Below are positions 3,962 to 64,000 of a stretch of DNA of 64,000 bases, piece after piece. The notes under the pieces were generated by a model. It made no database searches. It saw only the letters and a program-made list of their open reading frames with translations, and was not told the origin of the DNA. The stretch is from Hydrangea macrophylla. Its lineage: Eukaryota > Streptophyta > Magnoliopsida > Cornales > Hydrangeaceae. A program made the position numbers and the translations under genes. Position 1 is the stretch's first letter. Each line of letters begins with the position of its first letter. The DNA is taken from the NCBI GenBank assembly GCA_033977485.1, contig CM066994.1, positions 10,418,001 through 10,482,000 on the forward strand, in the 5' to 3' direction.

Positions 3962-3964
3962 AAT

Positions 3965-20265: not shown

Positions 20266-20763
20266 ATGGCCGGAAGAGGAAAGTCTCTTGGCTCCGCCGC
20301 CCCTAAGAAGGCCACCTCTCGCAGTAGCAAGGCCGGTCTTCAGTTCCCCGTCGGCCGAATCGCCCGTTTCCTCAAAGCCGGCAAGTACGCTGAGCGTGTA
20401 GGCGCCGGAGCTCCGGTCTACCTCGCCGCCGTCCTTGAATATCTCGCCGCTGAGGTAAATACCTATACATGTACATATGTATATATATATATATATATAT
20501 GTAAACGCACATATGTATATCTGATTTGGTGTGATTTTGGGGGGTTGTAGGTGCTGGAATTGGCAGGAAATGCGGCTCGGGACAACAAGAAGACACGGGT
20601 GGTCCCACGCCACATCCAATTGGCGGTGAGGAACGATGAAGAGCTGAGCAAGTTGCTTGGTGCGGTCACAATTGCCAATGGTGGTGTGATGCCAAATATT
20701 CACACTCACTTGTTGCCAAAGAAAGCTAGCTCTGCCTCTTCTAAAGCTGATGATGACAATTAG
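20266..20763 (+). CDS. Histone H2A, canonical type (two exons)
   Basis: Exons 20266-20454 and 20551-20763 give 133 aa. H2A pairs with H2B on the nucleosome in the nucleus. The sequence has the full histone fold from [20 protein letters not shown] to [17 protein letters not shown]. It also has the acidic-patch residues of [10 protein letters not shown]. The tail [12 protein letters not shown] has neither the SQEF phosphorylation motif of H2A.X nor the SPKK-type motif of H2A.W, and the docking region is not H2A.Z-like, so it is canonical. Ala replaces the usual Asp in [11 protein letters not shown]. The 96-bp intron splits LAAE|VLEL, the same place as in the second H2A gene of this window. Confidence 0.95.
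20478..20499. repeat. AT microsatellite in the H2A intron
   Basis: An (AT)n run fills about a fifth of the 96-bp intron (20455-20550). It is flanked by ACATATGTATA on both sides, so the intron RNA could form a short hairpin. Confidence 0.85.
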
Positions 20764-21668: not shown

Positions 21669-22653
21669 CTCCCCGACTCTACTCCGTCTGTTTTAGCAGC
21701 CCCTTTTCGACCACAGTTCAACAATCAGAATAAGCCTTACTCGAGAGTTGGTAGTGATGTATGCAGCTACTGTAAGGAGAAGGGTCATTGGAAGGCTCAG
21801 TGTCCTAGGTTGGGTCGTGCAAACCAGCCCAATAGCAGCAACCAGCCCCCACATGGTAGATCACCACAACACCAGCAACCTCAATATTCTCTTTGGAAAT
21901 CTGACAACCAATCTCAGCAGCGTTCATATGGGCCTCCACAGCCTAATACTGCAGCAGTTGTACCACCATCAGACTCATTTGGACTCGGTTCCCCTTCCCC
22001 ATCCACTCCGTCCATGACCTCCCTTGCTGAGCAATTTCAGAAGTTCCTTGCCACACAGCCACATGCTATGGCCACCTCTTCACTAGGTATGTCTTTAGGT
22101 ATGTCCTCAGGTATTTGGGTGTTAGACTCTGTAGCTTCTAATCATATGTCGCCTGACTTGTCGTCTTTTGCTTCCTTATGTCCCGCTTCCTCTTTGCCTG
22201 TTATGACTGCTGATGGTACTCCCATGCCATTAGCAGGTGTTGGGTCTGTTGTCACACCTCATGTATCTCTCCCTAGTGTTTACCACATTCCTAAACTTAC
22301 TATGAATCTTGTTTCTGTTGGTCAGCTTTGTGATGCAGGTTATTTAGTCTCTTTTTTTTCTACTTTTTGTCATGTGCAGGATCCGCAGTCTCAGACGCTG
22401 ATTGGGACAGGCCGTAGGCAAGGGAGATTATACATCTTGAACAAGCTCAATGTACCAGTGATTGCAGCTTCTAGTGTTGACTTGTCATCATTTCGTTTGA
22501 GTTCATCTTCGTCTAGTTTTTATTTATGGCATTCTCGCCTTGGTCATGTTTCAGTCTCTCGTTTAAAATATTTAGCTTCTACAGGAAAATTAGGAGATTT
22601 ACAAACTCATGACATTTCTGATTGTAGTGGTTGTAAACTGGCAAAATTTTCCG
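21669..22653 (+). repeat. Array unit 0 (5'-truncated)
   Basis: Starts within the gag linker at CTCCCCGACTC. It has the knuckle, protease and pre-integrase parts only. The catalytic DSG is DSV. Private changes are SLGMSLG, FFSTFC and HVSVSRL. Confidence 0.93.
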
Positions 22654-24462
22654 GATGATTTTGGTTCGTTGTTGGATTTCTCGCTGATTCGGATTCGGAT
22701 TTGTATTTAGATCTCGCACTGCTTTGCGCTCGTTTTTGGATCTGTCTGATTCTGGTTCGTCTGTTTTGTGTTTTTGGATCTGTTTTTGATTTTGGGTTCG
22801 CTTATTTTGTGTTACTTAATTGATTCGTTTTCGTAATGGCTACTGAACGTGATGATTCGCTTCAAGCGATTAGTGTTAAACTCGATGGCAAGAATTTTGC
22901 ATATTGGAATTATGTGATGAAAAATTTTCTGAAGGGGAAGAAGATGTGGGGTTATATCAATGGGGATTTTAGTAAACCTACGAATGAAAATGCTGATAAA
23001 TTTACAGAGTTGCTAGATGTTTGGGACACAAATAATTCAAAAATCATTACTTGGATCAACAACTCCGTTGCTCCCTCAATAGGTATGCAGTTGGCAAAGT
23101 TTGAATATGCAAAGGAGGTGTGGGATCATTTGGCTAAATTATTTACACAGTCCAATTTTGCGAACAGGTACCAATTAGAGTGTGATATTCGTGCCCTTGA
23201 ACAAAAAAATTTGAGTATTCAGGAGTTCTATTCTACAATGACAGATCTTTGGGATCAGTTAGCTCTCCTGGAGTCGCCCGAATTGCGGGCCTTTGCCCCA
23301 TATATCGCTAGTAGGGAGGAACAACGTCTGGTTCAGTTTTTGATGGCTCTACGTGAAGATTTTGAGGGCCTTCGTGGGTCCATTCTCCATCGTAGCCCAC
23401 TTCCTTCCGTTGATTCTGTTGTTCATGAGTTAGTAGCCGAGGAAATACGTCTCAAGACACAGTCTGGAAAGGGAATTCTCCCCGACTCTACTCCGTCTGT
23501 TTTAGCAGCCCCTTTTCGACCACAGTTCAACAATCAGAATAAGCCTTACTCGAGAGTTGGTAGTGATGTATGCAGCTACTGTAAGGAGAAGGGTCATTGG
23601 AAGGCTCAGTGTTCTAGGTTGGGTCGTGCAAACCAGCCCAATAGCAGCAACCAGCCCCCACATGGTAGATCACCACAACACCAGCAACCTCAATATTCTC
23701 TTTGGAAATCTGACAACCAATCTCAGCAGCGTTCATATGGGCCTCCACAGCCTAATACTGCAGCAGTTGTACCACCATCAGACTCATTTGGACTCGGTTC
23801 CCCTTCCCCATCCACTCCGTCCATGACCTCCCTTGCTGAACAATTTCAGAAGTTCCTTGCCACACAGCCACATGCTATGGCCACCTCTTCACTAGGTATG
23901 TCTTCAGGTATGTCCTCAGGTATTTGGGTGTTAGACTCTGTAGCTTCTAATCATATGTCGCCTGACTTGTCGTCTTTTGCTTCCTTATGTCCCGCTTCCT
24001 CTTTGCCTGTTATGACTGCTGATGGTACTCCCATGCCATTAGCAGGTGTTGGGTCTGTTGTCACACCTCATGTATCTCTCCCTAGTGTTTACCACATTCC
24101 TAAACTTACTATGAATCTTGTTTCTGTTGGTCAGCTTTGTGATGCAGGTTATTTAGTCTCTTTTTCTTCTACTTTTTGTCATGTGCAGGATCCGCAGTCT
24201 CAGACGCTGATTGGGACAGGCCGTAGGCAAGGGAGATTATACATCTTGAACAAGCTCAATGTACCAGTGATTGCAGCTTCTAGTGTTGACTTGTCATCAT
24301 TTCGTTTGAGTTCATCTTCGTCTAGTTTTTATTTATGGCATTCTCGCCTTGGTCATGTTTCAGCCTCTCGTTTAAAATATTTAGCTTCTACAGGAAAATT
24401 AGGAGATTTATAAACTCATGACATTTCTGATTGTAGTGGTTGTAAACTGGCAAAATTTTCCG
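22654..24462 (+). repeat. Array unit 1
   Basis: ATG at 22836. The frame is open for 525 codons and closes early because a CAA after LGDL is TAA (24411-24413). The protease motif is DSV. Ser follows the last knuckle Cys (QCSRLG). Confidence 0.93.
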
Positions 24463-26271
24463 GATGATTTTGGTTCGTTGTTGGATTTCTCGCTGATTCG
24501 GATTCGGATTTGTATTTAGATCTCGCACTGCTTTGCGCTTGTTTTTGGATCTGTCTGATTCTGGTTCGTCTGTTTTGTGTTTTTGGATCTGTTTTTGATT
24601 TTGGGTTCGCTTATTTTGTGTTACTTAATTGATTCGTTTTCGTAATGGCTACTGAACGTGATGATTCGCTTCAAGCGATTAGTGTTAAACTCGATGGCAA
24701 GAATTTTGCATATTGGAATTATGTGATGAAAAATTTTCTGAAGGGGAAGAAGATGTGGGGTTATATCAATGGGGATTTTAGTAAACCTACGAATGAAAAT
24801 GCTGATAAATTTACAGAGTTGCTAGATGTTTGGGACACAAATAATTCAAAAATCATTACTTGGATCAACAACTCCGTTGCTCCCTCAATAGGTATGCAGT
24901 TGGCAAAGTTTGAATATGCAAAGGAGGTGTGGGATCATTTGGCTAAATTATTTACACAGTCCAATTTTGCGAACAGGTACCAATTAGAGTGTGATATTCG
25001 TGCCCTTGAACAAAAAAATTTGAGTATTCAGGAGTTCTATTCTACAATGACAGATCTTTGGGATCAGTTAGCTCTCCTGGAGTCGCCCGAATTGCGGGCC
25101 TTTGCCCCATATATCGCTAGTAGGGAGGAACAACGTCTGGTTCAGTTTTTGATGGCTCTACGTGAAGATTTTGAGGGCCTTCGTGGGTCCATTCTCCATC
25201 GTAGCCCACTTCCGTCCGTTGATTCTGTTGTTCATGAGTTAGTAGCCGAGGAAATACGTCTCAAGACACAGTCTGGAAAGGGAATTCTCCCCGACTCTAC
25301 TCCGTCTGTTTTAGCAGCCCCTTTTCGACCACAGTTCAACAATCAGAATAAGCCTTACTCGAGAGTTGGTAGTGATGTATGCAGCTACTGTAAGGAGAAG
25401 GGTCATTGGAAGGCTCAGTGTCCTAGGTTGGGTCGTGCAAACCAGCCCAATAGCAGCAACCAGCCCCCACATGGTAGATCACCACAACACCAGCAACCTC
25501 AATATTCTCTTTGGAAATCTGACAACCAATCTCAGCAGCGTTCATATGGGCCTCCACAGCCTAATACTGCAGCAGTTGTACCACCATCAGACTCATTTGG
25601 ACCCGGTTCCCCTTCCCCATCCACTCCGTCCATGACCTCCCTTGCTGAGCAATTTCAGAAGTTCCTTGCCACACAGCCACATGCTATGGCCACCTCTTCA
25701 CTAGGTATGTCTTCAGGTATGTCCTCAGGTATTTGGGTGTTAGACTCTGTAGCTTCTAATCATATGTCGCCTGACTTGTCGTCTTTTGCTTCCTTATGTC
25801 CCGCTTCCTCTTTGCCTGTTATGACTGCTGATGGTACTCCCATGCCATTAGCAGGTGTTGGGTCTGTTGTCACACCTCATGTATCTCTCCCTAGTGTTTA
25901 CCACATTCCTAAACTTACTATGAATCTTGTTTCTGTTGGTCAGCTTTGTGATGCAGGTTATTTAGTCTCTTTTTCTTCTACTTTTTGTCATGTGCAGGAT
26001 CCGCAGTCTCAGACGCTGATTGGGACAGGCCGTAGGCAAGGGAGATTATACATCTTGAACAAGCTCAATGTACCAGTGATTGCAGCTTCTAGTGTTGACT
26101 TGTCATCATTTCGTTTGAGTTCATCTTCGTCTAGTTTTTATTTATGGCATTCTCGCCTTGGTCATGTTTCAGCCTCTCGTTTAAAATATTTAGCTTCTAC
26201 AGGAAAATTAGGAGATTTACAAACTCATGACATTTCTGATTGTAGTGGTTGTAAACTGGCAAAATTTTCCG
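24463..26271 (+). repeat. Array unit 2 (intact 543-codon ORF)
   Basis: ATG at 24645. The full gag-protease-zinc-finger frame is open to the junction stop (26274-26276). The protease motif is DSV, so it should lack protease activity. Confidence 0.93.
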
Positions 26272-28081
26272 GATGATTTTTGGTTCGTTGTTGGATTTCT
26301 CGCTGATTCGGATTCGGATTTGTATTTAGATCTCGCACTGCTTTGCGCTCGTTTTTGGATCTGTCTGATTCTGGTTCGTCTGTTTTGTGTTTTTGGATCT
26401 GTTTTTGATTTTGGGTTCGCTTATTTTGTGTTACTTAATTGATTCGTTTTCGTAATGGCTACTGAACGTGATGATTCGCTTCAAGCGATTAGTGTTAAAC
26501 TCGATGGCAAGAATTTTGCATATTGGAATTATGTGATGAAAAATTTTCTGAAGGGGAAGAAGATGTGGGGTTATATCAATGGGGATTTTAGTAAACCTAC
26601 GAATGAAAATGCTGATAAATTTACAGAGTTGCTAGATGTTTGGGACACAAATAATTCAAAAATCATTACTTGGATCAACAACTCCGTTGCTCCCTCAATA
26701 GGTATGCAGTTGGCAAAGTTTGAATATGCAAAGGAGGTGTGGGATCATTTGGCTAAATTATTTACACAGTCCAATTTTGCGAACAGGTACCAATTAGAGT
26801 GTGATATTCGTGCCCTTGAACAAAAAAATTTGAGTATTCAGGAGTTCTATTCTACAACGACAGATCTTTGGGATCAGTTAGTTCTCCTGGAGTCGCCCGA
26901 ATTGCGGGCCTTTGCCCCATATATCGCTAGGAGGGAAGAACAACGTCTGGTTCAGTTTTTGATGGCTCTACGTGAAGATTTTGAGGGCCTTCGTGGGTCC
27001 ATTCTCCATCGTAGCCCACTTCCGTCCGTTGATTCTGTTGTTCATGAGTTAGTAGCCGAGGAAATACGTCTCAAGACACAGTCTGGAAAGGGAATTCTCC
27101 CCGACTCTACTCCGTCTGTTTTAGCAGCCCCTTTTCGACCACAGTTCAACAATCAGAATAAGCCTTACTCGAGAGTTGGTAGTGATGTATGCAGCTACTG
27201 TAAGGAGAAGGGTCATTGGAAGGCTCAGTGTCCTAGGTTGGGTCGTGCAAACCAGCCCAATAGCAGCAACCAGCCCCCACATGGTAGATCACCACAACAC
27301 CAGCAACCTCAATATTCTCTTTGGAAATCTGACAACCAATCTCAGCAGCGTTCATATGGGCCTCCACAGCCTAATACTGCAGCAGTTGTACCACCATCAG
27401 ACTCATTTGGACTCGGTTCCCCTTCCCCATCCACTCCGTCCATGACCTCCCTTGCTGAGCAATTTCAGAAGTTCCTTGCCACACAGCCACATGCTATGGC
27501 CACCTCTTCACTAGGTATGTCTTCAGGTATGTCCTCAGGTATTTGGGTGTTAGACTCTGGAGCTTCTAATCATATGTCGCCTGACTTGTCGTCTTTTGCT
27601 TCCTTATGTCCCGCTTCCTCTTTGCCTGTTATGACTGCTGATGGTACTCCCATGCCATTAGCAGGTGTTGGGTCTGTTGTCACACCTCATGTATCTCTCC
27701 CTAGTGTTTACCACGTTCCTAAACTTACTATGAATCTTGTTTCTGTTGGTCAGCTTTGTGATGCAGGTTATTTAGTCTCTTTTTCTTCTACTTTTTGTCA
27801 TGTGCAGGATCCGCAGTCTCAGACGCTGATTGGGACAGGCCGTAGGCAAGGGAGATTATACATCTTGAACAAGCACAATGTACCAGTGATTGCAGCTTCT
27901 AGTGTTGACTTGTCATCATTTCGTTTGAGTTCATCTTCGTCTAGTTTTTATTTATGGCATTCTCGCCTTGGTCATGTTTCAGCCTCTCGTTTAAAATATT
28001 TAGCTTCTACAGGAAAATTAGGAGATTTACAAACTCATGACATTTCTGATTGTAGTGGTTGTAAACTGGCAAAATTTTCCG
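26272..28081 (+). repeat. Array unit 3 (intact 543-codon ORF)
   Basis: ATG at 26455. It is the first unit from the left with the catalytic DSG. The leader has one extra T, making the unit 1810 bp. Private changes are STTTDLW, LVLLESP and ARREEQ. Confidence 0.93.
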
Positions 28082-29889
28082 GATGATTTTGGTTCGTTGT
28101 TGGATTTCTCGCTGATTCGGATTCGGATTTGTATTTAGATCTCGCACTGCTTTGCGCTCGTTTTTGGATCTGTCTGATTCTGGTTCGTCTGTTTTGTGTT
28201 TTTGGATCTGTTTTTGATTTTGGGTTCGCTTATTTTGTGTTACTTAATTGATTCGTTTTCGTAATGGCTACTGAAAGTGACAATTCGCTTCAAGCGATTA
28301 GTGTTAAACTCGATGGCAAGAATTTTGCATATTGGAATTATGTGATGAAAAATTTTCTGAAGGGGAAGAAGATGTGGGGTTATATCAATGGGGATTTTAG
28401 TAAACCTACGAATGAAAATGCTGATAAATTTGCAGAGTTGCTAGATGTTTGGGACACAAATAATTCAAAAATCATTACTTGGATCAACAACTCCGTTGCT
28501 CCCTCAATAGGTATGCAGTTGGCAAAGTTTGAATATGCAAAGGAGGTGTGGGATCATTTGGCTAAATTATTTACACAGTCCAATTTTGCGAACAGGTACC
28601 AATTAGAGTGTGATATTCGTGCCCTTGAACAAAAAAATTTGAGTATTCAGGAGTTCTATTCTACAATGACAGATCTTTGGGATCAGTTAGCTCTCATGGA
28701 GTCGCCCGAATTACGGGCCTTTGCCCCATATATCGCTAGTAGGGAGGAACAACGTCTGGTTCAGTTTTTGATGGCTCTACGTGAAGATTTTGAGGGCCTT
28801 CGTGGGTTCATTCTCCATCGTAGCCCACTTCCGTCCGTTGATTCTGTTGTTCATGAGTTAGTAGCCGAGGAAATACGTCTCAAGACACAGTCTGGAAAGG
28901 GAATTCTCCCCGACTCTACTCCGTCTGTTTTAGCAGCCCTTTTTCGACTACAGTTCAACAATCAGAATAAGCCTTACTCGAGAGTTGGTAGTGATGTATG
29001 CAGCTACTGTAAGGAGAAGGGTCATTGGAAGGCTTAGTGTCCTAGGTTGGGTCGGCAAACCAGCCCAATAGCAGCAACCAGCCCCCACATGGTAGATCAC
29101 CACAACACCAGCAACCTCAATATTCTCTTTGGAAATCTGACAACCAATCTCAGCAGCGTTCATATAGGCCTCCACAGCCTAATACTGCAGCAGTTGTACC
29201 ACCATCAGACTCATTTGGACTCGTTTCCCCTTCCCCATCCACTCCGTCCATGACCTCCCTTGCTGAGCAATTTCAGAAGTTCCTTGCCACACAGCCACAT
29301 GCTATGGCCACCTCTTCACTAGGTATGTCTTCAGGTATGTCCTCAGGTATTTGGGTGTTAGACTCTGGAGCTTCTAATCATATGTCGCCTGACTTGTCGT
29401 CTTTTGCTTCCTTATGTCCCGCTTCCTCTTTGCCTGTTATGACTGCTGATGGTACTCCCATGCCATTAGCAGGTGTTGGGTCTGTTGTCACACCTCATGT
29501 ATCTCTCCCTAGTGTTTACCACATTCCTAAACTTACTATGAATCTTGTTTCTGTTGGTCAGCTTTGTGATGCAGGTTATTTAGTCTCTTTTTCTTCTACT
29601 TTTTGTCATGTGCAGGATCCGCAGTCTCAGACGCTGATTGGGACAGGCCGTAGGCAAGGGAGATTATACATCTTGGACAAGCTCAATGTACCAGTGGTTG
29701 CAGCTTCTAGTGTTGACTTATCATCCTTTCGTTTGAGTTCATCTTCGTCTAGTTTTTATTTATGGCATTCTCGCCTTGGTCATGTTTCAGCCTCTCGTTT
29801 AAAATATTTAGCTTCTACAGGAAAATTAGGAGATTTACAAACTCATGACATTTCTGATTGTAGTGGTTGTAAACTGGCAAAATTTTATG
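28082..29889 (+). repeat. Array unit 4
   Basis: ATG at 28264, with an unusual ESDNSLQ N-terminus. A TAG within the knuckle (29035-29037, CAG to TAG) and a 1-bp deletion just after (GTCGGCAAACC) break gag. Both lesions are shared with unit 5. The protease half reopens at 29250. Confidence 0.93.
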
Positions 29890-31697
29890 GATGATTTTGG
29901 TTCGTTGTTGGATTTCTCGCTGATTCGGATTTGGATTTGTATTTAGATCTCGCACTGCTTTGCGCTCGTTTTTGGATCTGTCTGATTCTGGTTCGTCTGT
30001 TTTGTGTTTTTGGATCTGTTTTTGATTTTGGGTTCGCTTATTTTGTGTTACTTAATTGATTCGTTTTCGTAATGGCTACTGAACGTGATGATTCGCTTCA
30101 AGCGATTAGTGTTAAACTCGATGGCAAGAATTTTGCATATTGGAATTATGTGATGAAAAATTTTCTAAAGGGGAAGAAGATGTGGGGTTATATCAATGGG
30201 GATTTTAGTAAACCTACGAATGAAAATGCTGATAAATTTACAGAGTTGCTAGATGTTTGGGACACAAATAATTCAAAAATCATTACTTGGATCAACAACT
30301 CCGTTGCTCCCTCAATAGGTATGCAGTTGGCAGAGTTTGAATATGCAAAGGAGGTGTGGGATCATTTGGCTAAATTATTTACACAGTCCAATTTTGCGAA
30401 CAGGTACCAATTAGAGTGTGATATTCGTGCCCTTGAACAAAAAAATTTGAGTATTCAGGAGTTCTATTCTACAATGACAGATCTTTGGGATCAGTTAGCT
30501 CTCATGGAGTCGCCCGAATTGCGGGCCTTTGCCCCATATATCGCTAGTAGGGAGGAACAACGTCTGGTTCAGTTTTTGATGGCTCTACGTGAAGATTTTG
30601 AGGGCCTTCGTGGGTCCATTCTCCATCGTAGCCCACTTCCGTCCGTTGATTCTGTTGTTCATGAGTTAGTAGCCGAGGAAATACGTCTCAAGACACAGTC
30701 TGGAAAGGGAATTCTCCCCGACTCTACTCCGTCTGTTTTAGCAGCCCCTTTTCGACCACAGTCCAACAATCAGAATAAGCCTTACTCGAGAGTTGGTAGT
30801 GATGTATGCAGCTACTGTAAGGAGAAGGGTCATTGGAAGGCTTAGTGTCCTAGGTTGGGTCGGCAAACCAGCCCAATAGCAGCAACCAGCCCCCACATGG
30901 TAGATCACCATAACACCAGCAACCTCAATATTCTCTTTGGAAGTCTGACAACCAATCTCAGCAGCGTTCATATAGGCCTCCACAGCCTAATACTGCAGCA
31001 GTTGTACCACCATCAGACTCATTTGGACCCGGTTCCCCTTTCCCATCCACTCCGTCCATGACCTCCCTTGCTGAGCAATTTCAGAAGTTCCTTGCCACAC
31101 AGCCACATGCTATGGCCACCTCTTCACTAGGTATGTCTTCAGGTATGTCCTCAGGTATTTGGGTGTTAGACTCTGGAGCTTCTAATCATATGTCGCCTGA
31201 CTTGTCGTCTTTTGCTTCCTTATGTCCCGCTTCCTCTTTGCCTGTTATGACTGCTGATGGTACTCCCATGCCATTAGCAGGTGTTGGGTCTGTTGTCACA
31301 CCTCATGTATCTCTCCCTAGTGTTTACCACATTCCTAAACTTACTATGAATCTTGTTTCTGTTGGTCAGCTTTGTGATGCAGGTTATTTAGTCTCTTTTT
31401 CTTCTACTTTTTGTCATGTGCAGGATCCGCAGTCTCAGACGCTGATTGGGACAGGCCGTAGGCAATGGAGATTATACATCTTGGACAAGCTCAATGTACC
31501 AGTGGTTGCAGCTTCTAGTGTTGACTTGTCATCCTTTCGTTTGAGTTCATCTTCGTCTAGTTTTTATTTATGGCATTCTCGCCTTGGTCATGTTTCAGCC
31601 TCTCGTTTAAAATATTTAGCTTCTACAGGAAAATTAGGAGATTTACAAACTCATGACATTTCTGATTGTAGTGGTTGTAAACTGGCAAAATTTTCCG
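29890..31697 (+). repeat. Array unit 5
   Basis: ATG at 30072. Same knuckle TAG (30843-30845) and 1-bp deletion as unit 4, so these neighbours share a recent ancestor. Length 1808 bp. Confidence 0.93.
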
Positions 31698-33510
31698 GAT
31701 GATTTTGGTTCGTTGTTGGATTTCTCGCTGATTCGGATTCGGATTTGTATTTAGATCTCGCACTGCTTTGCGCTCGTTTTTGGATCTGTCTGATTCTGGT
31801 TCGTCTGTTTTGTGTTTTTGGATCTGTTTTTGATTTTGGGTTCGCTTATTTTGTGTTACTTAATTGATTCGTTTTCGTAATGGCTACTGAACGTGATGAT
31901 TCGCTTCAAGCGATTAGTGTTAAACTCGATGGCAAGAATTTTGCATATTGAAATTATGTGATGAAAAATTTTCTGAAGGGGAAGAGGATGTGGGGTTATA
32001 TCAATGGGGATTTTAGTAAACCTACGAATGAAAATGCTGATAAATTTGCAGAGTTTCTAGATGTTTGGGACACAAATAATTCAAAAATCATTACTTGGAT
32101 CAACAACTCCGTTGCTCCCTCAATAGGTATGCAGTTGGCAAAGTTTGAATATGCAAAGGAGGTGTGGGATCATTTGGCTAAATTATTTACACAGTCCAAT
32201 TTTGCGAACAGGTACCAATTAGAGTGTGATATTCGTGCCCTTTAACAAAAAAATTTGAGTATTCAGGAGTTCTATTCTACAATGACAGATCTTTGGGATC
32301 AGTTAGCTCTCATGGAGTCGCCCGAATTGCGGGCCTTTGCCCCATATATCGCTAGTAGGGAGGAACAACGTCTGGTTCAGTTTTTGATGGCTCTACGTGA
32401 AGATTTTGAGGGCCTTCGTGGGTCCATTCTCCATCGTAGCCTACTTCCGCCCGTTGATTCTGTTGTTCATGAGTTAGTAGCCGAGGAAATACGTCTCAAG
32501 ACACAGTCTGGAAAGGGAATTCTCCCCGACTCTACTCCGTCTGTTTTAGCAGCCCCTTTTCGACCACAGTCCAACAATCAGAATAAGCCTTACTCGAGAG
32601 TTGGTAGTGATGTATGCAGCTACTGTAAGGAGAAGGGTCATTGGAAGGCTCAGTGTCCTAGGTTGGGTGGTGCAAACCAGCCCAATAGCAGCAACCAGCC
32701 CCCACATGGTAGATCACCACAACACCAGCAACCTCAATATTCTCTTTGGAAATCTGACAACCAATCTCAGCAGCGTTCATATAGGCCTCCACAGCCTAAT
32801 ACTGCAGCAGTTGTACCACCATCAGACTCATTTGGACCCGGTTCCCCTTCCCCATCCACTCCGTCCATGACCTCCCTTGCTGAGCAATTTCAGAAGTTCC
32901 TTGCCACACAACCACATGCTATGGCCACCTCTTCGATCACTAGGTATGTCTTCAGGTATGTCCTCAGGTATTTGGGTGTTAGACTCTGGAGCTTCTAACC
33001 ATATGTCGCCTGACTTGTCGTCTTTTGCTTCCTTATGTCCCGCTTCCTCTTTGCCTGTTATGACTGCTGATGGTACTCCCATGCCATTAGCAGGTGTTGG
33101 GTCTGTTGTCACACCTCATGTATCTCTCCCTAGTGTTTACCACATTCCTAAACTTACTATGAATCTTGTTTCTGTTGGTCAGCTTTGTGATGCAGGTTAT
33201 TTAGTCTCTTTTTCTTCTACTTTTTGTCATGTGCAGGATCCGCAGTCTCAGACGCTGATTGGGACAGGCCGTAGGCAAGGGAGATTATACATCTTGGACA
33301 AGCTCAATGTACCAGTGGTTGCAGCTTCTAGTGTTGACTTGTCATCCTTTCGTTTGAGTTCATCTTCGTCTAGTTTTTATTTATGGCATTCTCGCCTTGG
33401 TCATGTTTCAGCCTCTCGTTTAAAATATTTAGCTTCTACAGGAAAATTAGGAGATTTACAAACTCATGACATTTCTGATTGTAGGGGTTGTAAACTGGCA
33501 AAATTTTTCG
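31698..33510 (+). repeat. Array unit 6
   Basis: ATG at 31880. TGA at 31949-31951 (Trp codon) and TAA at 32243-32245 (Glu codon) break gag. It is the first unit from the left with the 4-bp GATC insertion (about 32935-32938), which shifts frame before the protease. Confidence 0.93.
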
Positions 33511-42567: not shown

Positions 42568-44376
42568 GATGATTTTGGTTCGTTGTTGGATTTCTCGCTG
42601 ATTCGGATTCGGATTTGTATTTAGATCTCGCACTGCTTTGCGCTCGTTTTTGGATCTGTCTGATTCTGGTTCGTCTGTTTTGTGTTTTTGGATCTGTTTT
42701 TGATTTTGGGTTCGCTTATTTTGTGTTACTTAATTGATTCGTTTTCGTAATGGCTACTGAACGTGATGATTCGCTTCAAGCGATTAGTGTTAAACTCGAT
42801 GGCAAGAATTTTGCATATTGGAATTATGTGATGAAAAATTTTCTGACGGGGAAGAAGATGTGGGGTTATATCAATGGGGATTTTAGTAAACCTACGAATG
42901 AAAATGCTGATAAATTTGCAGAGTTGCTAGATGTTTGGGACACAAATAATTCAAAAATCATTACTTGGATCAACAACTCCGTTGCTCCCTCAATAGGTAT
43001 GCAGTTGGCAAAGTTTGAATATGCAAAAGAGGTGTGGGATCATTTGGCTAAATTATTTACACAGTCCAATTTTGCGAACAGGTACCAATTAGAGTGTGAT
43101 ATTCGTGCCCTTGAACAAAAAAATTTGAGTATTCAGGAGTTCTATTCTACAATGACAGATCTTTGGGATCAGTTAGCTCTCATGGAGTCGCCCGAATTGC
43201 GGGCCTTTGCCCCATATATCGCTAGTAGGGAGGAACAACGTCTGGTTCTGTTTTTGATGGCTCTACGTAAAGATTTTGAGGGCCTTCGTGGATCCATTCT
43301 CCATCGTAGCCTACTTCCGTCCGTTGATTCTGTTGTTCACGAGTTAGTAGCCGAGGAAATACATCTCAAGACACAGTCTGGAAAGGGAATTCTCCCCGAC
43401 TCTACTCCGTCTGTTTTAGCAGCCCCTTTTCGACCACAGTCCAACAATCAGAATAAGCCTTACTCGAGAGTTGGTAGTGATGTATGCAGCTACTGTAAGG
43501 AGAAGGGTCATTGGAAGGCTCAGTGTCCTAGGTTGGGTGGTGCAAACCAGCCCAATAGCAGCAACCAGCCCCCACATGGTAGATCACCACAACACCAGCA
43601 ACCTCAATATTCTCTTTGGAAATCTGACAACCAATCTCAGCAGCGTTCATATAGGCCTCCACAGCCTAATACTGCAGCAGTTGTACCACCATCAGACTCA
43701 TTTGGACCCGGTTCCCCTTCCCCATCCACTCCGTCCATGACCTCCCTTGCTGAGCAATTTCAGAAGTTCCTTGCCACACAGCCACATGCTATGGCCACCT
43801 CTTCACTAGGTATGTCTTCAGGTATGTCCTCAGGTATTTGGGTGTTAGACTCTGGAGCTTCTAATCATATGTCGCCTGACTTGTCGTCTTTTGCTTCCTT
43901 ATGTCCCGCTTCCTCTTTGCCTGTTATGACTGCTGATGGTACTCCCATGCCATTAGCAGGTGTTGGGTCTGTTGTCACACCTCATGTATCTCTCCCTAGT
44001 GTTTACCACATTCCTAAACTTACTATGAATCTTGTTTCTGTTGGTCAGCTTTGTGATGCAGGTTATTTAGTCTCTTTTTCTTCTACTTTTTGTCATGTGC
44101 AGGATCCGCAGTCTCAGACGCTGATTGGGACAGGCCGTAGGCAAGGGAGATTATACATCTTGGACAAGCTCAATGTACCAGTGGTTGCAGCTTCTAGTGT
44201 TGACTTGTCATCCTTTCGTTTGAGTTCATCTTCGTCTAGTTTTTATTTATGGCATTCTCGCCTTGGTCATGTTTCAGCCTCTCGTTTAAAATATTTAGCT
44301 TCTACAGGAAAATTAGGAGATTTACAAACTCATGACATTTCTGATTGTAGTGGTTGTAAACTGGCAAAATTTTTCG
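42568..44376 (+). repeat. Array unit 12 (third unit of trimer B; intact 543-codon ORF)
   Basis: ATG at 42750. The gag half matches unit 9 (RLVLFLMAL, RLGGANQ), but the GATC insertion is absent, so the ORF stays open with DSG. Private changes are NFLTGKK and LRKDFEG. Confidence 0.93.
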
Positions 44377-46189
44377 GATGATTTTGGTTCGTTGTTGGAT
44401 TTCTCGCTGATTCGGATTCGGATTTGTATTTAGATCTCGCACTGCTTTGCGCTCGTTTTTGGATCTGTCTGATTCTGGTTCGTCTGTTTTGTGTTTTTGG
44501 ATCTGTTTTTGATTTTGGGTTCGCTTATTTTGTGTTACTTAATTGATTCGTTTTCGTAATGGCTACTGAACGTGATGATTCGCTTCAAGCGATTAGTGTT
44601 AAACTCGATGGCAAGAATTTTGCATATTGGAATTATGTGATGAAAAATTTTCTGAAGGGGAAGAAGATGTGGGGTTATATCAATGGGGATTTTAGTAAAC
44701 CTACGAATGAAAATGCTGATAAATTTGCAGAGTTGCTAGATGTTTGGGACACAAATAATTCAAAAATCATTACTTGGATCAACAACTCCGTTGCTCCCTC
44801 AATAGGTATGCAGTTGGCAAAGTTTGAATATGCAAAGGAGGTGTGGGATCATTTGGCTAAATTATTTACACAGTCCAATTTTGCGAACAGGTACCAATTA
44901 GAGTGTGATATTCGTGCCCTTGAACAAAAAAATTTGAGTATTCAGGAGTTCTATTCTACAACGACAGATCTTTGGGATCAGTTAGCTCTCCTGGAGTCGC
45001 CCGAATTGCGGGCCTTTGCCCCATATATCGCTAGTAGGGAGGAACAACGTTTGGTTCTGTTTTTGATGGCTCTACGTGAAGACTTTGAGGGACTTCGTGG
45101 GTCCATTCTCCATCGTAGCCTACTTCCGTCCGTTGATTCTGTTGTTCATGAGTTAGTAGCCGAGGAAATACATCTCAAGACACTGTCTAGAAAGATAATT
45201 CTCCCCGACTCTACTCCGTCTGTTTTAGCAGCCCCTTTTCGACCACAGGCCAACAATCAGAATAAGCCTTACTCGAGAGTTGGTAGTTATGTATACAGCT
45301 ACTGTAAGGAGAAGGGTCATTGGAAGGCTCAGTGTCCTAGGTTGGGTGGTGCAAACCAGCCCAATAGCAGCAACCAGCCCCCACATGGTAGATCACCACA
45401 ACACCAGCAACCTCAATATTCTCTTTGGAAATCTGACAACCAATCTCAGCAGCGTTCATATAGGCCTCCACAGCCTAATACTGCAGCAGTTGTACCACCA
45501 TCAGACTCATTTGGACCCGGTTCCCCTTCCCCATCCACTCCGTCCATGACCTCCCTTGCTGAGCAATTTCAGAAGTTCCTTGCCACACAGCCACATGCTA
45601 TGGCCACCTCTTCGATCACTAGGTATGTCTTCAGGTATGTCCTCAGGTATTTGGGTGTTAGACTCTGGAGCTTCTAATCATATGTCGCCTGACTTGTCGT
45701 CTTTTGCTTCCTTATGTCCCGCTTTCTCTTTGCCTGTTATGACTGCTGATGGTACTCCCATGCCATTAGCAGGTGTTGGGTCTGTTGTCACACCTCATGT
45801 ATCTCTCCCTAGTGTTTACCACATTCCTAAACTTACTATGAATCTTGTTTCTGTTGGTCAGCTTTGTGATGCAGGTTATTTAGTCTCTTTTTCTTCTACT
45901 TTTTGTCATGTGCAGGATCCGCAGTCTCAGACGCTGATTGGGACAGGCCGTAGGCAAGGGAGATTATACATCTTGGACAAGCTCAATGTACCAGTGGTTG
46001 CAGCTTCTAGTGTTGACTTCTCATCCTTTCGTTTGAGTTCATCTTCGTCTAGTTTTTATTTATGGCATTCTCGCCTTGGTCATGTTTCAGCCTCTCGTTT
46101 AAAATATTTAGCTTCTACAGGAAAATTAGGAGATTTACAAACTCATGACATTTCTGATTGTAGGGGTTGTAAACTGGCAAACTTTTTCG
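44377..46189 (+). repeat. Array unit 13
   Basis: ATG at 44559. Carries the GATC insertion and a 372-codon ORF. The first knuckle Cys is Tyr (SYVYSYC), so the zinc finger should not fold. Several other private changes occur between 45180 and 45200. Confidence 0.93.
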
Positions 46190-47998
46190 GATGATTTTGG
46201 TTCGTTGTTGGATTTCTCGCTGATTCGGATTCGGATTTGTATTTAGATCTCGCACTGCTTTGCGCTCGTTTTTGGATCTGTCTGATTCTGGTTCGTCTGT
46301 TTTGTGTTTTTGGATCTGTTTTTGATTTTTGGTTCGCTTATTTTGTGTTACTTAATTGATTCGTTTTCGTAATGGCTACTGAACGTGATGATTCGCTTCA
46401 AGCGATTAGTGTTAAACTCGATGGCAAGAATTTTGCATATTGGAATTATGTGATGAAAAATTTTCTGAAGGGGAAGAAGATGTGGGGTTATATCAATGGG
46501 GATTTTAGTAAACCTACGAATGAAAATGCTGATAAATTTGCAGAGTTGCTAGATGTTTGGGACACAAATAATTCAAAAATCATTACTTGGATCAACAACT
46601 CCGTTGCTCCCTCAATAGGTATGCAGTTGGCAAAGTTTGAATATGCAAAGGAGGTGTGGGATCATTTGGCTAAATTATTTACACAGTCCAATTTTGCGAA
46701 TAGGTACCAATTAGAGTGTGATATTCGTGCCCTTGAACAAAAAAATATGAGTATTCAGGAGTTCTATTCTACAATGACAGATCTTTGGGATCAGTTAGCT
46801 CTCATGTAGTCGCCCGAATTGCGGGCCTTTGCCCCATATATCGCTAGTAGGGAGGAACAACGTCTGGTTCAGTTTTTGATGGCTCTACGTGAAGATTTTG
46901 AGGGCCTTCGTGGGTCCATTCTCCATCGTAGCCCACTTCCGTCCGTTGATTCTGTTGTTCATGAGTTAGTAGCCGAGGAAATACGTCTCAAGACACAGTC
47001 TGGAAAGGGAATTCTCCCCGACTCTACTCCGTCTGTTTTCGCAGCCCCTTTTCGACCACAGTCCAACAATCAGAATAAGCCTTACTCGAGAGTTGGTAGT
47101 GATGTATGCATCTACTGTAAGGAGAAGGGTCATTGGAAGGCTCAGTTTCCTAGGTTCGGTCGTGCAAACCAGCCCAATAGCAGCAACCAGCCCCCACATG
47201 GTAGATCACCACAACACCAGCAACCTCAATATTCTCTTTGGAAATCTGACAACCAATCTCAGCAGCGTTCATATAGGCCTCCACAGCCTAATACTGCAGC
47301 AGTTGTACCACCATCAGACTCATTTGGACCCGGTTCCCCTTCCCCATCCACTCCGTCCATGACCTCCCTTGCTGAGCAATTTCAAAAGTTCCTTGCCACA
47401 CAGCCACATGCTATGGCCACCTCTTCACTAGGTATGTCTTCAGGTATGTCCTCAGGTATTTGGGTGTTAGACTCTGGAGCTTCTAATCATATGTCGCCTG
47501 ACTTGTCGTCTTTTGCTTCCTTATGTCCCGCTTCCTCTTTGCCTGTTATGACTGCTGATGGTACTCCCATGCCATTAGCAGGTGTTGGGTCTGTTGTCAC
47601 ACCTCATGTATCTCTCCCTAGTGTTTACCACATTCCTAAACTTACTATGAATCTTGTTTCTGTTGGTCAGCTTTGTGATGCAGGTTATTTAGTCTCTTTT
47701 TCTTCTACTTTTTGTCATGTGCAGGATCCGCAGTCTCAGACGCTGATTGGGACAGGCCGTAGGCAAGGGAGATTATATATCTTGGACAAGCTCAATGTAC
47801 CAGTGGTTGCAGCTTCTAGTGTTGACTTGTCATCCTTTCGTTTGAGTTTATCTTCGTCTAGTTTTTATTTATGGCATTCTCGCCTTGGTCATATTTCAGC
47901 CTCTCGTTTAAAATATTTAGCTTCTACAGGAAAATTAGGAGATTTACAAACTCATGACATTTCTGATTGTAGTGGTTGTAAACTGGCAAAATTTTCCG
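46190..47998 (+). repeat. Array unit 14
   Basis: ATG at 46372. TAG at 46807-46809 (Glu codon) ends gag after 145 codons. The last knuckle Cys is Phe (KAQFPRF). The remaining frame is open for 394 codons to the junction. Confidence 0.93.
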
Positions 47999-49807
47999 GA
48001 TGATTTTGGTTCGTTGTTGGATTTCTCGCTGATTCGGATTTGGATTTGTATTTAGATCTCGCACTGCTTTGCGCTCGTTTTTGGATCTGTCTGATTCTGG
48101 TTCGTCTGTTTTGTGTTTTTGGATCTGTTTTTGATTTTGGGTTCGCTTATTTTGTGTTACTTAATTGATTCGTTTTCGTAATGGCTACTGAACGTGATGA
48201 TTCGCTTCAAGCGATTAGTGTTAAACTCGATGGCAAGAATTTTGCATATTTGAATTATGTGATGAAAAATTTTCTGAAGGGGAAGAAGATGTGGGGTTAT
48301 ATCAATGGGGATTTTAGTAAACCTACGAATGAAAATGCTGATAAATTTGCAGAGTTGCTAGATGTTTGGGACACAAATAATTCAAAAATCATTACTTGGA
48401 TCAACAACTCCGTTGCTCCCTCAATAGGTATGCAGTTGGCAAAGTTTGAATATGCAAAGGAGGTGTGGGATCATTTGGCTAAATTATTTACACAGTCCAA
48501 TTTTGCGAACAGGTACCAATTAGAGTGTGATATTCGTGCCCTTGAACAAAAAAATTTGAGTATTCAGGAGTTCTATTCTACAATGACAGATATTTGGGAT
48601 CAGTTAGCTCTCATGGAGTCGCCCGAATTGCGGGCCTTTGCCCCATATATCGCTAGTAGGGAGGAACAACGTCTGGTTCTGTTTTTGATGGCTCTACGTG
48701 AAGATTTTGAGGGCCTTCGTGGGTCCATTCTCCATCGTAGCCCACTTCCGTCCGTTGATTCTGTTGTTCATGAGTTAGTAGCCGAGGAAATACGTCTCAA
48801 GACACAGTCTGGAAAGGGAATTATCCCCGACTCTACTCCGTCTGTTTTAGCAGCCCCTTTTCGACCACAGTCCAACAATCAGAATAAGCCTTACTCGAGA
48901 GTTGGTAGTGATGTATGCAGCTACTGTAAGGAGAAGGGTCATTGGAAGGCTCAGTGTCCTAGGTTGGGTCGTGCAAACCAGCCCAATAGCAGCAACCAGC
49001 CCCCACATGGTAGATCACCACAACACCAGCAACCTCAATATTCTCTTTGGAAATCTGACAACCAATCTCAGCAGCGTTCATATAGGCCTCCACAGCCTAA
49101 TACTGCAGCAGTTGTACCACCATCAGACTCATTTGGACCCGGTTCCCCTTCCCCATCCACTCCGTCCATGACCTCCCTTGCTGAGCAATTTCAGAAGTTC
49201 CTTGCCACACAGCCACATGCTATGGCCACCTCTTCACTAGGTATGTCTTCAGGTATGTCCTCAGGTATTTGGGTGTTAGACTCTGGAGCTTCTAATCATA
49301 TGTCGCCTGACTTGTCGTCTTTTGCTTCCTTATGTCCCGCTTCCTCTTTGCCTGTTATGACTGCTGATGGTACTCCCATGCCATTAGCAGGTGTTGGGTC
49401 TGTTGTCACACCTCATGTATCTCTCCCTAGTGTTTACCACATTCCTAAACTTACTATGAATCTTGTTTCTGTTGGTCAGCTTTGTGATGCAGGTTATTTA
49501 GTCTCTTTTTCTTCTACTTTTTGTCATGTGCAGGATCCGCAGTCTCAGACGCTGATTGGGACAGGCCGTAGGCAAGGGAGATTATACATCTTGGACAAGC
49601 TCAATGTACCAGTGGTTGCAGCTTCTAGTGTTGACTTGTCATCCTTTCGTTTGAGTTCATCTTCGTCTAGTTTTTATTTATGGCATTCTCGCCTTGGTCA
49701 TGTTTCAGCCTCTCGTTTAAAATATTTAGCTTCTACAGGAAAATTAGGAGATTTACAAACTCATGACATTTCTGATTGTAGTGGTTGTAAACTGGCAAAA
49801 TTTTCCG
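47999..49807 (+). repeat. Array unit 15 (intact 543-codon ORF)
   Basis: ATG at 48181. Full frame with DSG and a complete CCHC knuckle. Trp to Leu in FAYLNYVM is private. Confidence 0.93.
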
Positions 49808-51616
49808 GATGATTTTGGTTCGTTGTTGGATTTCTCGCTGATTCGGATTCGGATTTGTATTTAGATCTCGCACTGCTTTGCGCTCGTTTTTGGATCTGTC
49901 TGATTCTGGTTCGTCTGTTTTTTGTTTTTGGATCTGTTTTTGATTTTGGGTTCGCTTATTTTGTGTTACTTAATTGATTCGTTTTCGTAATGGCTACTGA
50001 ACGTGATGATTCGCTTCAAGCGATTAGTGTTAAACTCGATGGCAAGAATTTTGCATATTGGAATTATGTGATGAAAAATTTTCTGAAGGGGAAGAAGATG
50101 TGGGGTTATATCAATGGGGATTTTAGTAAACCTACGAATGAAAATGCTGATAAATTTGCAGAGTTGCTAGATGTTTGGGACACAAATAATTCAAAAATCA
50201 TTACTTGGATCAACAACTCCGTTGCTCCCTCAATAGGTATGCTGTTGTCAAAGTTTGAATATGCAAAGGAGGTGTGGGATCATTTGGCTAAATTATTTAC
50301 GCAGTCCAATTTTGCGAAAAGGTACCAATTAGAGTGAGATATTCGTGCCCTTGAACAAAAAAATTTGAGTATTCAGGAGTTCTATTCTACAATGACAGAT
50401 CTTTGGGATCAGTTAGCTCTCATGGAGTTGCCCGAATTGCGGGCCTTTGCCCCATATATCGCTAGTAGGGAGGAACAACGTCTGGTTCAGTTTTTGATGG
50501 CTCTACGTGAAGATTTTGAGGGCCTTCGTGGGTCCATTCTCCATCGTAGCCTACTTCCGTCCGTTGATTCTGTTGTTCATGAGTTAGTAGCCGAGGAAAT
50601 ACGTCTCAAGACACAGTCTGGAAAGGGAATTCTCCCCGACTCTACTCCGTCTGTTTTAGCAGCCCCTTTTCGACCACAGTCCAACAATCAGAATAAGCCT
50701 TACTCGAGAGTTGGTAGTGATGTATGCAGCTACTGTAAGGAGAAGGGTCATTGGAAGGCTCAGTGTCCTAGGTTGGGTGGTGCAAACCAGCCCAATAGCA
50801 GCAACCAGCCCCCACATGGTAGATCACCACAACACCAGCAACCTCAATATTCTCTTTGGAAATCTGACAACCAATCTCAGCAGCGTTCATATAGGCCTCC
50901 ACAGCCTAATACTGCAGCAGTTGTACCACCATCAGACTCATTTGGACCCGGTTCCCCTTCCCCATCCACTCCGTCCATGACCTCCCTTGCTGAGCAATTT
51001 CAGAAGTTCCTTGCCACACAGCCACATGCTATGGCCACCTCTTCACTAGGTATGTCTTCAGGTATGTCCTCAGGTATTTGGGTGTTAGACTCTGGAGCTT
51101 CTAATCATATGTCGCCTTACTTGTCGTCTTTTGCTTCCTTATGTCCCGCTTCCTCTTTGCCTATTATGACTGCTGATGGTACTCCCATGCCATTAGCAGG
51201 TGTTGGGTCTGTTGTCACACCTCATGTATCTCTCCCTAGTGTTTACCACATTCCTAAACTTACTATGAATCTTGTTTCTGTTGGTCAGCTTTGTGATGCA
51301 GGTTATTTAGTCTCTTTTTCTTCTACTTTTTGTCATGTGCAGGATCCGCAGTCTCAGACGCTGATTGGGACAGGCCGTAGGCAAGGGAGATTATACATCT
51401 TGGACAAGCTCAATGTACCAGTGGTTGCAGCTTCTAGTGTTGACTTGTCATCCTTTCGTTTGAGTTCATCTTCGTCTAGTTTTTATTTATGGCATTCTCG
51501 CCTTGGTCATGTTTCAGCCTCTCGTTTAAAATATTTAGCTTCTACAGGAAAATTAGGAGATTTACAAACTCATGACATTTCTGATTGTAGTGGTTGTAAA
51601 CTGGCAAAATTTTTCG
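49808..51616 (+). repeat. Array unit 16
   Basis: ATG at 49990. TGA at 50335-50337 follows FAKRYQLE. This stop, the preceding Lys and a leader G-to-T change (CTGTTTTTTGTTTTTGG) are shared with unit 17. Confidence 0.93.
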
Positions 51617-53425
51617 GATGATTTTGGTTCGTTGTTGGATTTCTCGCTGATTCGGATTCGGATTTGTATTTAGATCTCGCACTGCTTTGCGCTCGTTTTT
51701 GGATCTGTCTGATTCTGGTTCGTCTGTTTTTTGTTTTTGGATCTGTTTTTGATTTTGGGTTCGCTTATTTTGTGTTACTTAATTGATTCGTTTTCGTAAT
51801 GGCTACTGAACGTGATGATTCGCTTCAAGCGATTAGTGTTAAACTCGATGGCAAGAATTTTGCATATTGGAATTATGTGATGAAAAATTTTCTGAAGGGG
51901 AAGAAGATGTGGGGTTATATCAATGGGGATTTTAGTAAACCTACGAATGAAAATGCTGATAAATTTGCAGAGTTGCTAGATGTTTGGGACACAAATAATT
52001 CAAAAATCATTACTTGGATCAACAACTCCGTTGCTCCCTCAATAGGTATGCTGTTGGCAAAGTTTGAATATGCAAAGGAGGTGTGGGATCATTTGGCTAA
52101 ATTATTTACACAGTCCAATTTTGCGAAAAGGTACCAATTAGAGTGAGATATTCGTGCCCTTGAACAAAAAAATTTGAGTATTCAGGAGTTCTATTCTACA
52201 ATGACAGATCTTTGGGATCAGTTAGCTCTCATGGAGTCGCCCGAATTGCGGGCCTTTGCCCCATATATCGCTAGTAGGGAGGAACAACGTATGGTTCAGT
52301 TTTTGATGGCTCTACGTGAAGATTTTGAGGGCCTTCGTGGGTCCATTCTCCATCGTAGCCCACTTCCGTCCGTTGATTCTGTTGTTCATGAGTTAGTAGC
52401 CGAGGAAATACGTCTCAAGACACAGTCTGGAAAGGGAATTCTCCCCGACTCTACTCCGCCTGTTTTAGCAGCCCCTTTTCGACCACAGTCCAATAATCAG
52501 AATAAGTCTTACTCGAGAGTTGGTAGTGATGTATGCAGCTACTGTAAGGAGAAGGGTCATTGGAAGGCTCAGTGTCCTAGGTTGGGTCGTGCAAACCAGC
52601 CCAATAGCAGCAACCAGCCCTCACATGGTAGATCACCACAACACCAGCAACCTCAATCTTCTCTTTGAAAATCTGACAACCAATCTCAGCAGCGTTCATA
52701 TAGGCCTCCACAGCCTAATACTGCAGCAGTTGTACCACCATCAGACTCATTTGGACCCGGTTCCCCTTCCCCATCCACTCCGTCCATGACCTCCCTTGCT
52801 GAGCAATTTCAGAAGTTCCTTGCCACACAGCCACATGCTATGGCCACCTCTTCACTAGGTATGTCTTCAGGTATGTCCTCAGGTATTTGGGTGTTAGACT
52901 CTGGAGCTTCTAATCATATGTCGCCTGACTTGTCGTCTTTTGCTTCCTTATGTCCTGCTTCCTCTTTGCCTGTTATGACTGCTGATGGTACTCCCATGCC
53001 ATTAGCAGGTGTTGGGTCTGTTGTCACACCTCATGTATCTCTCCCTAGTGTTTACCACATTCGTAAACTTACTATGAATCTTGTTTCTGTTGGTCAGCTT
53101 TGTGATGCAGGTTATTTAGTCTCTTTTTCTTCTACTTTTTGTCATGTGCAGGATCCGCAGTCTCAGACGCTGATTGGGACAGGCCGTAGGCAAGGGAGAT
53201 TATACATCTTGGACAAGCTCAATGTATCAGTGGTTGCAGCTTCTAGTGTTGACTTGTTATCCTTTCGTTTGAGTTCATCTTCGTCTAGTTTTTATTTATG
53301 GCATTCTCGCCTTGGTCATGTTTCAGCCTCTCGTTTAAAATATTTAGCTTCTACAGGAAAATTAGGAGATTTACAAACTCATGACATTTCTGATTGTAGT
53401 GGTTGTAAACTGGCAAAATTTTCCG
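51617..53425 (+). repeat. Array unit 17, joined to the pol region
   Basis: ATG at 51799. TGA at 52144-52146 (shared with unit 16) and a private TGA at 52666-52668 break gag. Instead of ending at the junction it continues into integrase, so it marks the parent layout of the element. Confidence 0.93.
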
Positions 53426-56009: not shown

Positions 56010-56022
56010 GTTTGAGGAGGGG
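56010..56022 (+). promoter_or_regulatory. Polypurine tract before the 3' LTR
   Basis: The purine-rich GTTTGAGGAGGGG run directly precedes TGTTAGAA. It lies just after the pol stop, the usual copia arrangement. Confidence 0.7.
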
Positions 56023-56220
56023 TGTTAGAATTAGTTTTATTAGCTTTAGGGTAGTTTAGTCTTTTCTTTGTATTAGGGTAATACTGTATACCTAGATATT
56101 CTATTATTATTGCCTCTTCTTTTTCATTGTATTCATTCATTCAGTTTTAGTGTTATGAAAAACTCTAGCTCTCTTTTCTCTTTCCCTTTGTTGTTTTCTT
56201 GATTATTTAATATATTCACA
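56023..56220 (+). repeat. Probable 3' LTR of the copia element
   Basis: Begins TGTTAGAATTAG after the purine tract and ends ATATTCACA, giving TGT...ACA ends over 198 bp. The right edge is inferred from the ends alone. No second LTR exists in the window to confirm it, and no matching target duplication was found at the array's left end. Confidence 0.6.
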
Positions 56221-57895: not shown

Positions 57896-58038
57896 GGGCA
57901 CAAACAACTTCCACTAACACTTACTAACACACTCTATCTCTCTCCTAGTGGTGCTGCGGGGTCCACTGCGGACCCCACAGTGTCACTAGGAGAGAGATAG
58001 AGTGTGTTAGTAAGTGTTAGTGGAAGTTGTTAGTGCCT
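57896..58038. mobile_element. Foldback hairpin element
   Basis: Two exact 48-base inverted arms (57903-57950 and 57984-58031) flank a 33-base core. The core is itself a smaller palindrome (GGGGTCC...GGACCCC). Outer bases GGCACAAAC/GTTAGTGCC extend the pairing imperfectly. The whole piece would fold into one long hairpin. No target duplication is clear. Confidence 0.85.

Positions 58039-63027: not shown

Positions 63028-64000
<973 letters not shown>

Follow-up and report, generated by a model that had tools for sequence, protein, structure and literature searches.

A tandem array of copia leader-gag-protease units in Hydrangea macrophylla, with its junction at a rearrangement point of the family

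How does a tandem array come by its first repeat? The founding step, which precedes the stage at which unequal exchange can act, is an open step in the birth of satellites. A 64,000-nt stretch of the Hydrangea macrophylla genome (C13:10418001-10482000; contig CM066994.1 of assembly GCA_033977485.1; hereafter the window) raises this question with the parent sequence still attached. In it, the leader, gag and protease of a Ty1/copia long terminal repeat (LTR) retrotransposon are repeated head-to-tail, and the last copy continues into the pol region and 3' LTR of the element itself (Table 1). The attached parent, the single junction, the first branching of the pol-joined unit and the family's 469 leader sites make the founding step testable. 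The most informative feature, missed in an earlier sequence-only reading of the locus, is that the junction, at its leader end, coincides with a site of recurrent rearrangement in dispersed copies of the family. Because of this coincidence, reverse transcription is taken as the source of the first duplication, which probably arose by an abnormal template switch and was then expanded in the chromosome.

Self-BLAST and lag counts, with lags chiefly of 1809 and 1813, place the direct repeats at 21669-53425 of the window, which corresponds to C13:10439669-10471425. Offset self-alignments of the array give 97.97-98.99% identity across 1 to 30 kb, far above chance. The array is made up of a 984-nt partial left copy (U00), 16 full units of 1808-1813 nt (U01-U16) and a last copy of 1807 nt (U17), which is cut at 53422 and is continuous with pol from there. 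The 17 unit junctions have their ends between 22652 and 51615; the C-terminal part of gag and the protease are present 18 times, and the leader and N-terminal part of gag 17 times. The eighteen direct copies of about 1.81 kb originally counted are thus correct if the partial left copy is included. Each unit begins in the leader at GGATGATTTTGG, some 182 nt ahead of the gag ATG, and extends through gag, protease and the GAG-pre-integrase region to AAAATTTTCC, or a variant differing by one to two bases, where the next unit starts. The one unit scanned with Pfam (24633-26273) contains copia gag, Pol_BBD and GAG-pre-integrase domains (PF14244, PF14223, PF22936, PF13976). Mean pairwise divergence among U01-U17 is 1.13%.

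As first proposed, repeated transposition alone is insufficient to explain these units. BLAST of the LTR against the window, with a query shifted by one base, found no LTR between units; it returned only the LTR at the right end and a 31-nt minus-strand match of 84% outside the array (63835-63865, E 0.025). Nor was a primer-binding site found in the array at up to 1 mismatch. Nested or repeated insertion is rejected because neither LTR nor primer-binding site separates the units, and U17 alone, as had been noted, is joined to pol and an LTR. A 25-nt junction pattern with up to 2 mismatches was searched in the whole assembly (2.22 Gb, 19 contigs), to which all genome-wide results below refer. 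It occurs in 17 places, all in the window, and its reversed control has no match in the assembly. The leader allele of the array is also private: its 17 exact matches all fall within the array, and elsewhere it has three one-mismatch places.

Satellite DNA has a high copy number and usually occupies several loci or large heterochromatic blocks. The array shares with satellites its near-identical, head-to-tail monomers, but it has 17 junctions at one locus of 31.8 kb. It is a single-locus array, and a dispersed satellite is ruled out because the junction is confined to that locus. The label "satellite-like" therefore holds for the form of the array and not for its distribution. The array is a retrotransposon-derived tandem repeat, whose monomer comes wholly from one family and whose junction is absent from ordinary copies.

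Dispersed members of the family reveal the sequence from which the junction departs. A query of one unit gave 1264 candidate places, 39 of them scored, with matches of about 93-99% in 81 pieces, mostly in the ordinary order leader-gag-protease; a leader pattern gave the 469 sites, the array's own included. The 39 scored copies, which are biased toward array-like copies, were joined with the first 30 leader sites, and five duplicates were dropped, giving a sample of 64. One candidate for a second array (L106) was rejected, since its own LTR and primer-binding site precede its leader. LTR pairs were recognized in 14 of 20 dispersed copies by comparison of 5' and 3' pieces; eleven pairs measure 195-201 nt with 0-7 substitutions, and three are shorter. 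Primer-binding sites resembling TGGTATCAGAGC are present in most dispersed copies.

Dispersed copies are alike downstream of a GGATGA motif in the leader and differ just upstream of it. This point is present in 58 of the 64 copies and missing from L018, L029, L030, L036, L061 and L072. Of 1330 ordered pairs from 37 copies, 1114 could be placed; 642 of these lose homology 0-9 nt 5' of GGATGA, although the fuzzy start match may move these positions by a few nt. Upstream of the point, the 64 copies comprise 23 short leaders (including four misfits: L063, L065, L070 and L077), 9 GC-rich leaders, 22 others, 4 without an intact upstream leader and the 6 without the hotspot sequence. Of 26 segments of the other or lacking classes, 11 match LTR, leader or protease sequence of the family itself; L058, which has only an ordinary LTR end and primer-binding site, is excluded as a capture. 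Captures thus amount to ten of 26, compared with 0.65 of 26 in shuffled controls, and two of the ten (L090 and L091) share the same context.

The captures are of several kinds. For example, L032 and L060 each show an LTR fused to the leader with the primer-binding site missing, and the leader of L027 contains a duplication. In L059, a 14-nt protease piece precedes a 12-nt leader start, and each of these two pieces is weak singly. Independently of the ten, L107 carries its own 61-nt head-to-tail leader duplication at the hotspot. The leader of L085, ...GATTTTCC|GGATGA (ending ATTTTCC|GGATGA), has 8 nt, ATTTTCCG, in common with the protease end. Rearranged leaders common to L057/L068, L080/L081 and L090/L091 may be accounted for by DNA duplication. 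Separately, L026 has several hundred nt without a family match 5' of the hotspot and L079 has unrelated DNA there, both with A-rich runs; this upstream DNA is possibly captured host sequence. L018 (C8:122854381-122857025) consists of two family fragments, inverted head to head, with part of the segment missing. The array junction lies at this recurrent rearrangement point of independent copies, as a template-switch product would, and can be read as a further case of rearrangement at the family's leader hotspot, here with the protease end as acceptor.

The array is more likely than not to have been founded as follows. Its ancestor would be a copia element with the dispersed copy at C15:58119280 as a relative. 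While moving 3' to 5' along the RNA, reverse transcriptase would come off at the T-run that immediately precedes GGATGA, and the strand would land on the similar AAAATTTTCC at the protease/GAG-pre-integrase end of the same or a co-packaged RNA, such that the segment would be copied twice. This jump back of 1.8 kb would yield a head-to-tail repeat without an LTR. The element with the duplication would insert at a distance of about 0.9 kb from an H2A gene. Unequal exchange, involving sister chromatids or homologues, would then multiply its upstream 1.8-kb copy at that site to about 16.5 units, with U17 staying single. Local block duplications would come afterwards, and a deletion would take the left end with the 5' LTR. 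In this full form, with a leader switch point prone to jumps to LTR, leader, protease or foreign sequence and one jump to the protease end starting the repeat that grew upstream, the account draws belief and doubt in about equal measure. Two variants were set aside: back-splicing into circular RNA, as the junction read from the sequence lacks GT/AG signals, and a switch between two different family RNAs, for which no donor was found (the array state occurs in 0, 0 and 2 of 64 copies at three sites that separate U17).

The order of branching and the distribution of changes bear on what happened after founding. In a FastTree phylogeny with 39 dispersed copies, U01-U17 form one clade (support 0.941) near L017, with no dispersed copy inside, and the pol-joined U17 is sister to U01-U16 (support 0.935). 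This position would fit a two-copy stage from which the upstream copy later expanded. The partial U00 grouped with the rearranged L018, which is taken as an alignment effect; by distance, the nearest there is U02. Seven dispersed copies served as outgroup to polarize changes, and with one ambiguous and all gapped columns dropped, 117 derived sites remained. Four of these occur in all 17 units, all within 63 leader columns and none in gag-protease; within gag-protease, three are in U01-U16 but not U17, and one is in U01-U15 only. Units carry a mean of 18.5 derived sites, or 14.5 without the four fixed ones. Consequently, the two-copy stage falls early in the element's separate history, and the expansion of the upstream copy began after three or four more changes, in roughly the first quarter of that time. 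As a separate observation, derived G>T changes in the units (19) outnumber C>A changes (7), a strand asymmetry.

Growth itself bears the marks of chromosomal exchange. Divergence increases unevenly with distance: it averages 0.93% across the 16 neighbouring pairs, 1.25-1.36% for units 12-15 apart and 1.55% for the one pair 16 apart. The block U07-U09 matches U10-U12 with 6, 2 and 5 differences. Graded divergence and a three-unit block duplication are as predicted by unequal exchange. Disabling changes are common to U04/U05, U07/U10/U13, U08/U11 and U16/U17, which indicates that copying continued after decay had begun. RNase H removes the RNA template during reverse transcription, and many jumps in one round are therefore unlikely; for this reason, and because U17 lies outside the other units, growth is assigned to exchange in the chromosome. 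Singletons make up 75 of 113 non-fixed derived sites, compared with a mean of 35.5 under a constant-size coalescent (P 0.0048), an excess consistent with rapid growth that gave way to slow local exchange.

Unequal crossing-over and rolling-circle amplification had at first been offered side by side. An excised leader-gag-protease circle, amplified as a rolling circle and recombined back into the element, would be compatible with the singleton excess as a burst, with one junction in head-to-tail units and with a U01-U16 clade separate from U17. However, the right end of the array is in register with the parent pol, local unequal exchange already explains the graded divergence, and no further array with the junction was found in the assembly. 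A rolling-circle origin is thus improbable, and unequal exchange appears to have done the growth. A still less probable explanation is that mis-assembly inflated one or few copies. Among U01-U17 there are 82 variant columns with singletons and 39 with shared variants, the full units have four lengths, and the shared disabling changes fall in particular neighbouring or block-duplicated units; such features argue against an artefact even though the array is known from the assembly alone and a second young tandem (881-8435, 99.9%) lies in the same window.

The main rival is a chromosomal origin of the first duplication, in which ATTTTCCG-like stretches separated by 1.8 kb in an inserted element would give rise to it through microhomology-mediated joining, slippage during replication or unequal exchange, and unequal exchange would account for the later growth. 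Two copies followed by expansion fit this origin equally well, and short similar stretches are present at both unit ends. For the maize repeats CRM1TR and CRM4TR, the accessible text indicates that the authors favour illegitimate recombination and gene conversion (PMC3648361). Against such an origin stands the coincidence of the leader end with the point where independent insertions hold LTR, leader and protease pieces; moreover, no gag-protease change is fixed in the 17 units, which makes the duplication old when set against the divergence between the element and its relatives. A chromosomal first duplication is therefore rather unlikely, though the junction was found in no other insertion, which speaks for it.

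The template-switch origin faces difficulties of its own. The array junction was found in no other insertion in the assembly and was not seen passed on via RNA. Not all homology ends cluster at the hotspot, since 189 of the 1114 pairs end at least 10 nt further upstream and 283 end downstream. Exact short head-to-tail leader repeats are rare, with one place having a 32-62-nt spacer and none having 1-31 nt. Two hairpin-type leaders gave folding z values of -0.82 and -2.43, and hairpin-driven pausing as the cause of the hotspot thus has little support. A T-run may also undergo breakage or slippage at the DNA level, and the parent's 5' leader is lost, such that the presumed microhomology is read from relatives. 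Errors of assembly or polishing may have raised the number of singletons. The distance of pol from L001 is 11 of 1500 sites (0.73%). For the units, the distance from that copy, also numbered L017, is 15-31 of about 1809 sites (0.83-1.71%), somewhat more than for pol, so that equal age is only approximate. Finally, the four fixed leader substitutions are clustered in columns 118-180, with none fixed in about 1.6 kb of gag-protease. Their set of states was not found elsewhere, two of them occurring singly in L069 and L024. They may have come from recombination, or from copying errors that clustered close to the switch.

The units derive from a coding segment, but the coding monomer claimed in the sequence-only reading has not been kept as such. 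The frame is open in 4 of 17 units, and derived changes in the 17 units (24 synonymous, 72 non-synonymous and 11 stops) look neutral beside neutral means of 24.7, 76.2 and 6.1. Purifying selection on the array gag-protease was not detected by this comparison, selection on the coding frame is rejected, and nothing in the sequence suggests that the coding content is used. It is hardly credible, then, that the array owes its retention, as a co-opted gag cluster, to Gag products or small RNAs that hold the family in check. Four open frames and an H2A gene about 0.9 kb away would suit that explanation; near-neutral changes and the lack of an LTR, hence of a known promoter, within the array do not.

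The parent is assigned to Ty1/copia by its domain order gag-PR-INT-RT, with a protease motif, DSG, read from the sequence. The frame at 52669-55470 adds rve, SH3_retrovirus and RVT_2 domains (Pfam), and RNase H is expected within the single-copy region that follows U17. Two LTRs, a primer-binding site and a pair of target-site duplications were sought at the locus; the 3' LTR alone remains. The local copy is judged to be 5'-truncated because LTR pairs and TGGTATCAGAGC-like sites occur in dispersed copies, and the left partner of the target-site duplication is missing because of this truncation.

The array lies between FH2 and H2A gene sequences on one side and a second H2A gene on the other. 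The left flank has a full-length match to itself only and short pieces elsewhere. The two predicted H2A-like histone genes, recognized from their translations, are convergent, at 20266-20763 (+) and about 63090-64000 (-), and a 68-bp minisatellite (63474-63798) lies in an intron of the second. Formin (FH2) matches occur at 13891-17497 in three frames, one under the Pfam cut-off. The tandem at 881-8435 has a 3,084-bp unit in about 2.45 copies of 99.9% identity; it contains twice a 369-aa minus-strand frame, for which Pfam gave no match. A foldback-like near-palindrome of 141 bp (57897-58037) is 90.8% identical to its own reverse complement.

Table 1. Features of the array and its parent element (window positions)
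Feature	Position	Strand	Remarks
Whole tandem array	21669..53425	+	
U00	21669..22652	+	partial leftmost copy; begins within gag; 5' LTR and leader missing; protease DSV, not DSG
U01	22653..24461	+	gag-protease frame stops at codon 526; DSV
U02	24462..26270	+	frame open; DSV
U03	26271..28080	+	frame open; DSG
U04	28081..29888	+	frame broken, first stop at codon 258
U05	29889..31696	+	frame broken at 258, in common with U04
U06	31697..33509	+	1813-bp type, 4-nt insertion; frame broken at 24
U07	33510..35322	+	1813-bp type; frame broken at 373; starts duplicated block U07-U09
U08	35323..37131	+	frame broken at 298
U09	37132..38944	+	1813-bp type; frame broken at 85
U10	38945..40757	+	6 differences from U07; frame broken at 373; U10-U12 duplicate U07-U09
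U11	40758..42566	+	2 differences from U08; frame broken at 298
U12	42567..44375	+	5 differences from U09; frame open
U13	44376..46188	+	1813-bp type; most diverged unit; frame broken at 373
U14	46189..47997	+	frame broken at 146
U15	47998..49806	+	frame open
U16	49807..51615	+	frame broken at 116, in common with U17
Example junction	51601..51627	+	protease/GAG-pre-integrase end joined to leader GGATGATTTTGG
U17	51616..53422	+	last unit, runs on into pol; frame broken at 116; sister to U01-U16 in tree
Integrase and reverse transcriptase (RT) region of parent	53423..56022	+	single-copy; stop codons toward its end (in that frame, 55471 onward); purine-rich tract at about 56013-56022
LTR	56023..56220	+	sole LTR, 198 nt, TGTTAG...TTCACA; bounds from LTR pairs of dispersed copies
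GTTAA	56221..56225	+	presumed right target-site duplication, from the sequence

Tandem arrays derived from retrotransposons are already known, gag-related ones included. In maize, CRM1TR and CRM4TR are tandem repeats from the LTR and untranslated region (UTR) of Ty3/gypsy centromeric elements, found at several loci; according to the accessible text, their authors propose intrastrand deletions with gene conversion, and one monomer end is at the same relative UTR point in both (PMC3648361). They resemble the Hydrangea array in being local and wholly derived from an LTR retrotransposon, whereas the latter is a copia array without an LTR, from a coding segment, at one locus beside genes. In the sequence-only reading, satellites from retrotransposon parts came mostly from LTRs or UTRs, and a coding monomer with its parent attached was unusual, but gag-related satellites in rye and Aegilops/wheat are listed in the portions available (PMC9659126; PMC3648361), and gag and pol domains have been named as satellite sources (PMC12628747, accessible part). 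As described there, the rye and Aegilops/wheat monomers are likewise gag-related but have partial gag-like sequence or similarity, in contrast to the whole leader-gag-protease unit joined here to its parent. Cassandra, a plant retroelement without gag, pol or env domains, also forms long tandem arrays, as far as the available text describes (PMC7215508); the present unit differs as a gag-protease segment without an LTR. Abnormal template switching has been proposed to fuse LTR retrotransposon copies in Triticeae (PMC1950507, accessible part). Those complexes are described with a third internal LTR and flanking target-site duplications, whereas here the switch would be within the element and give an LTR-less direct repeat that was later amplified.

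The Hydrangea array is set apart by its attached copia parent, its LTR-less leader-gag-protease monomer, its single locus near an H2A gene and, newly, a junction that falls on a rearrangement hotspot of the family. No description of an array tied to a template-switch hotspot was found in the open-licence literature searched, which is weak evidence of absence. If the proposed origin is true, retrotransposons could seed satellites within the particle, ahead of insertion. More speculatively, a leader switch point might serve as a general starter of arrays, a possibility for which the shared UTR site of the maize CRM repeats, as given in the accessible text (PMC3648361), offers a comparison.

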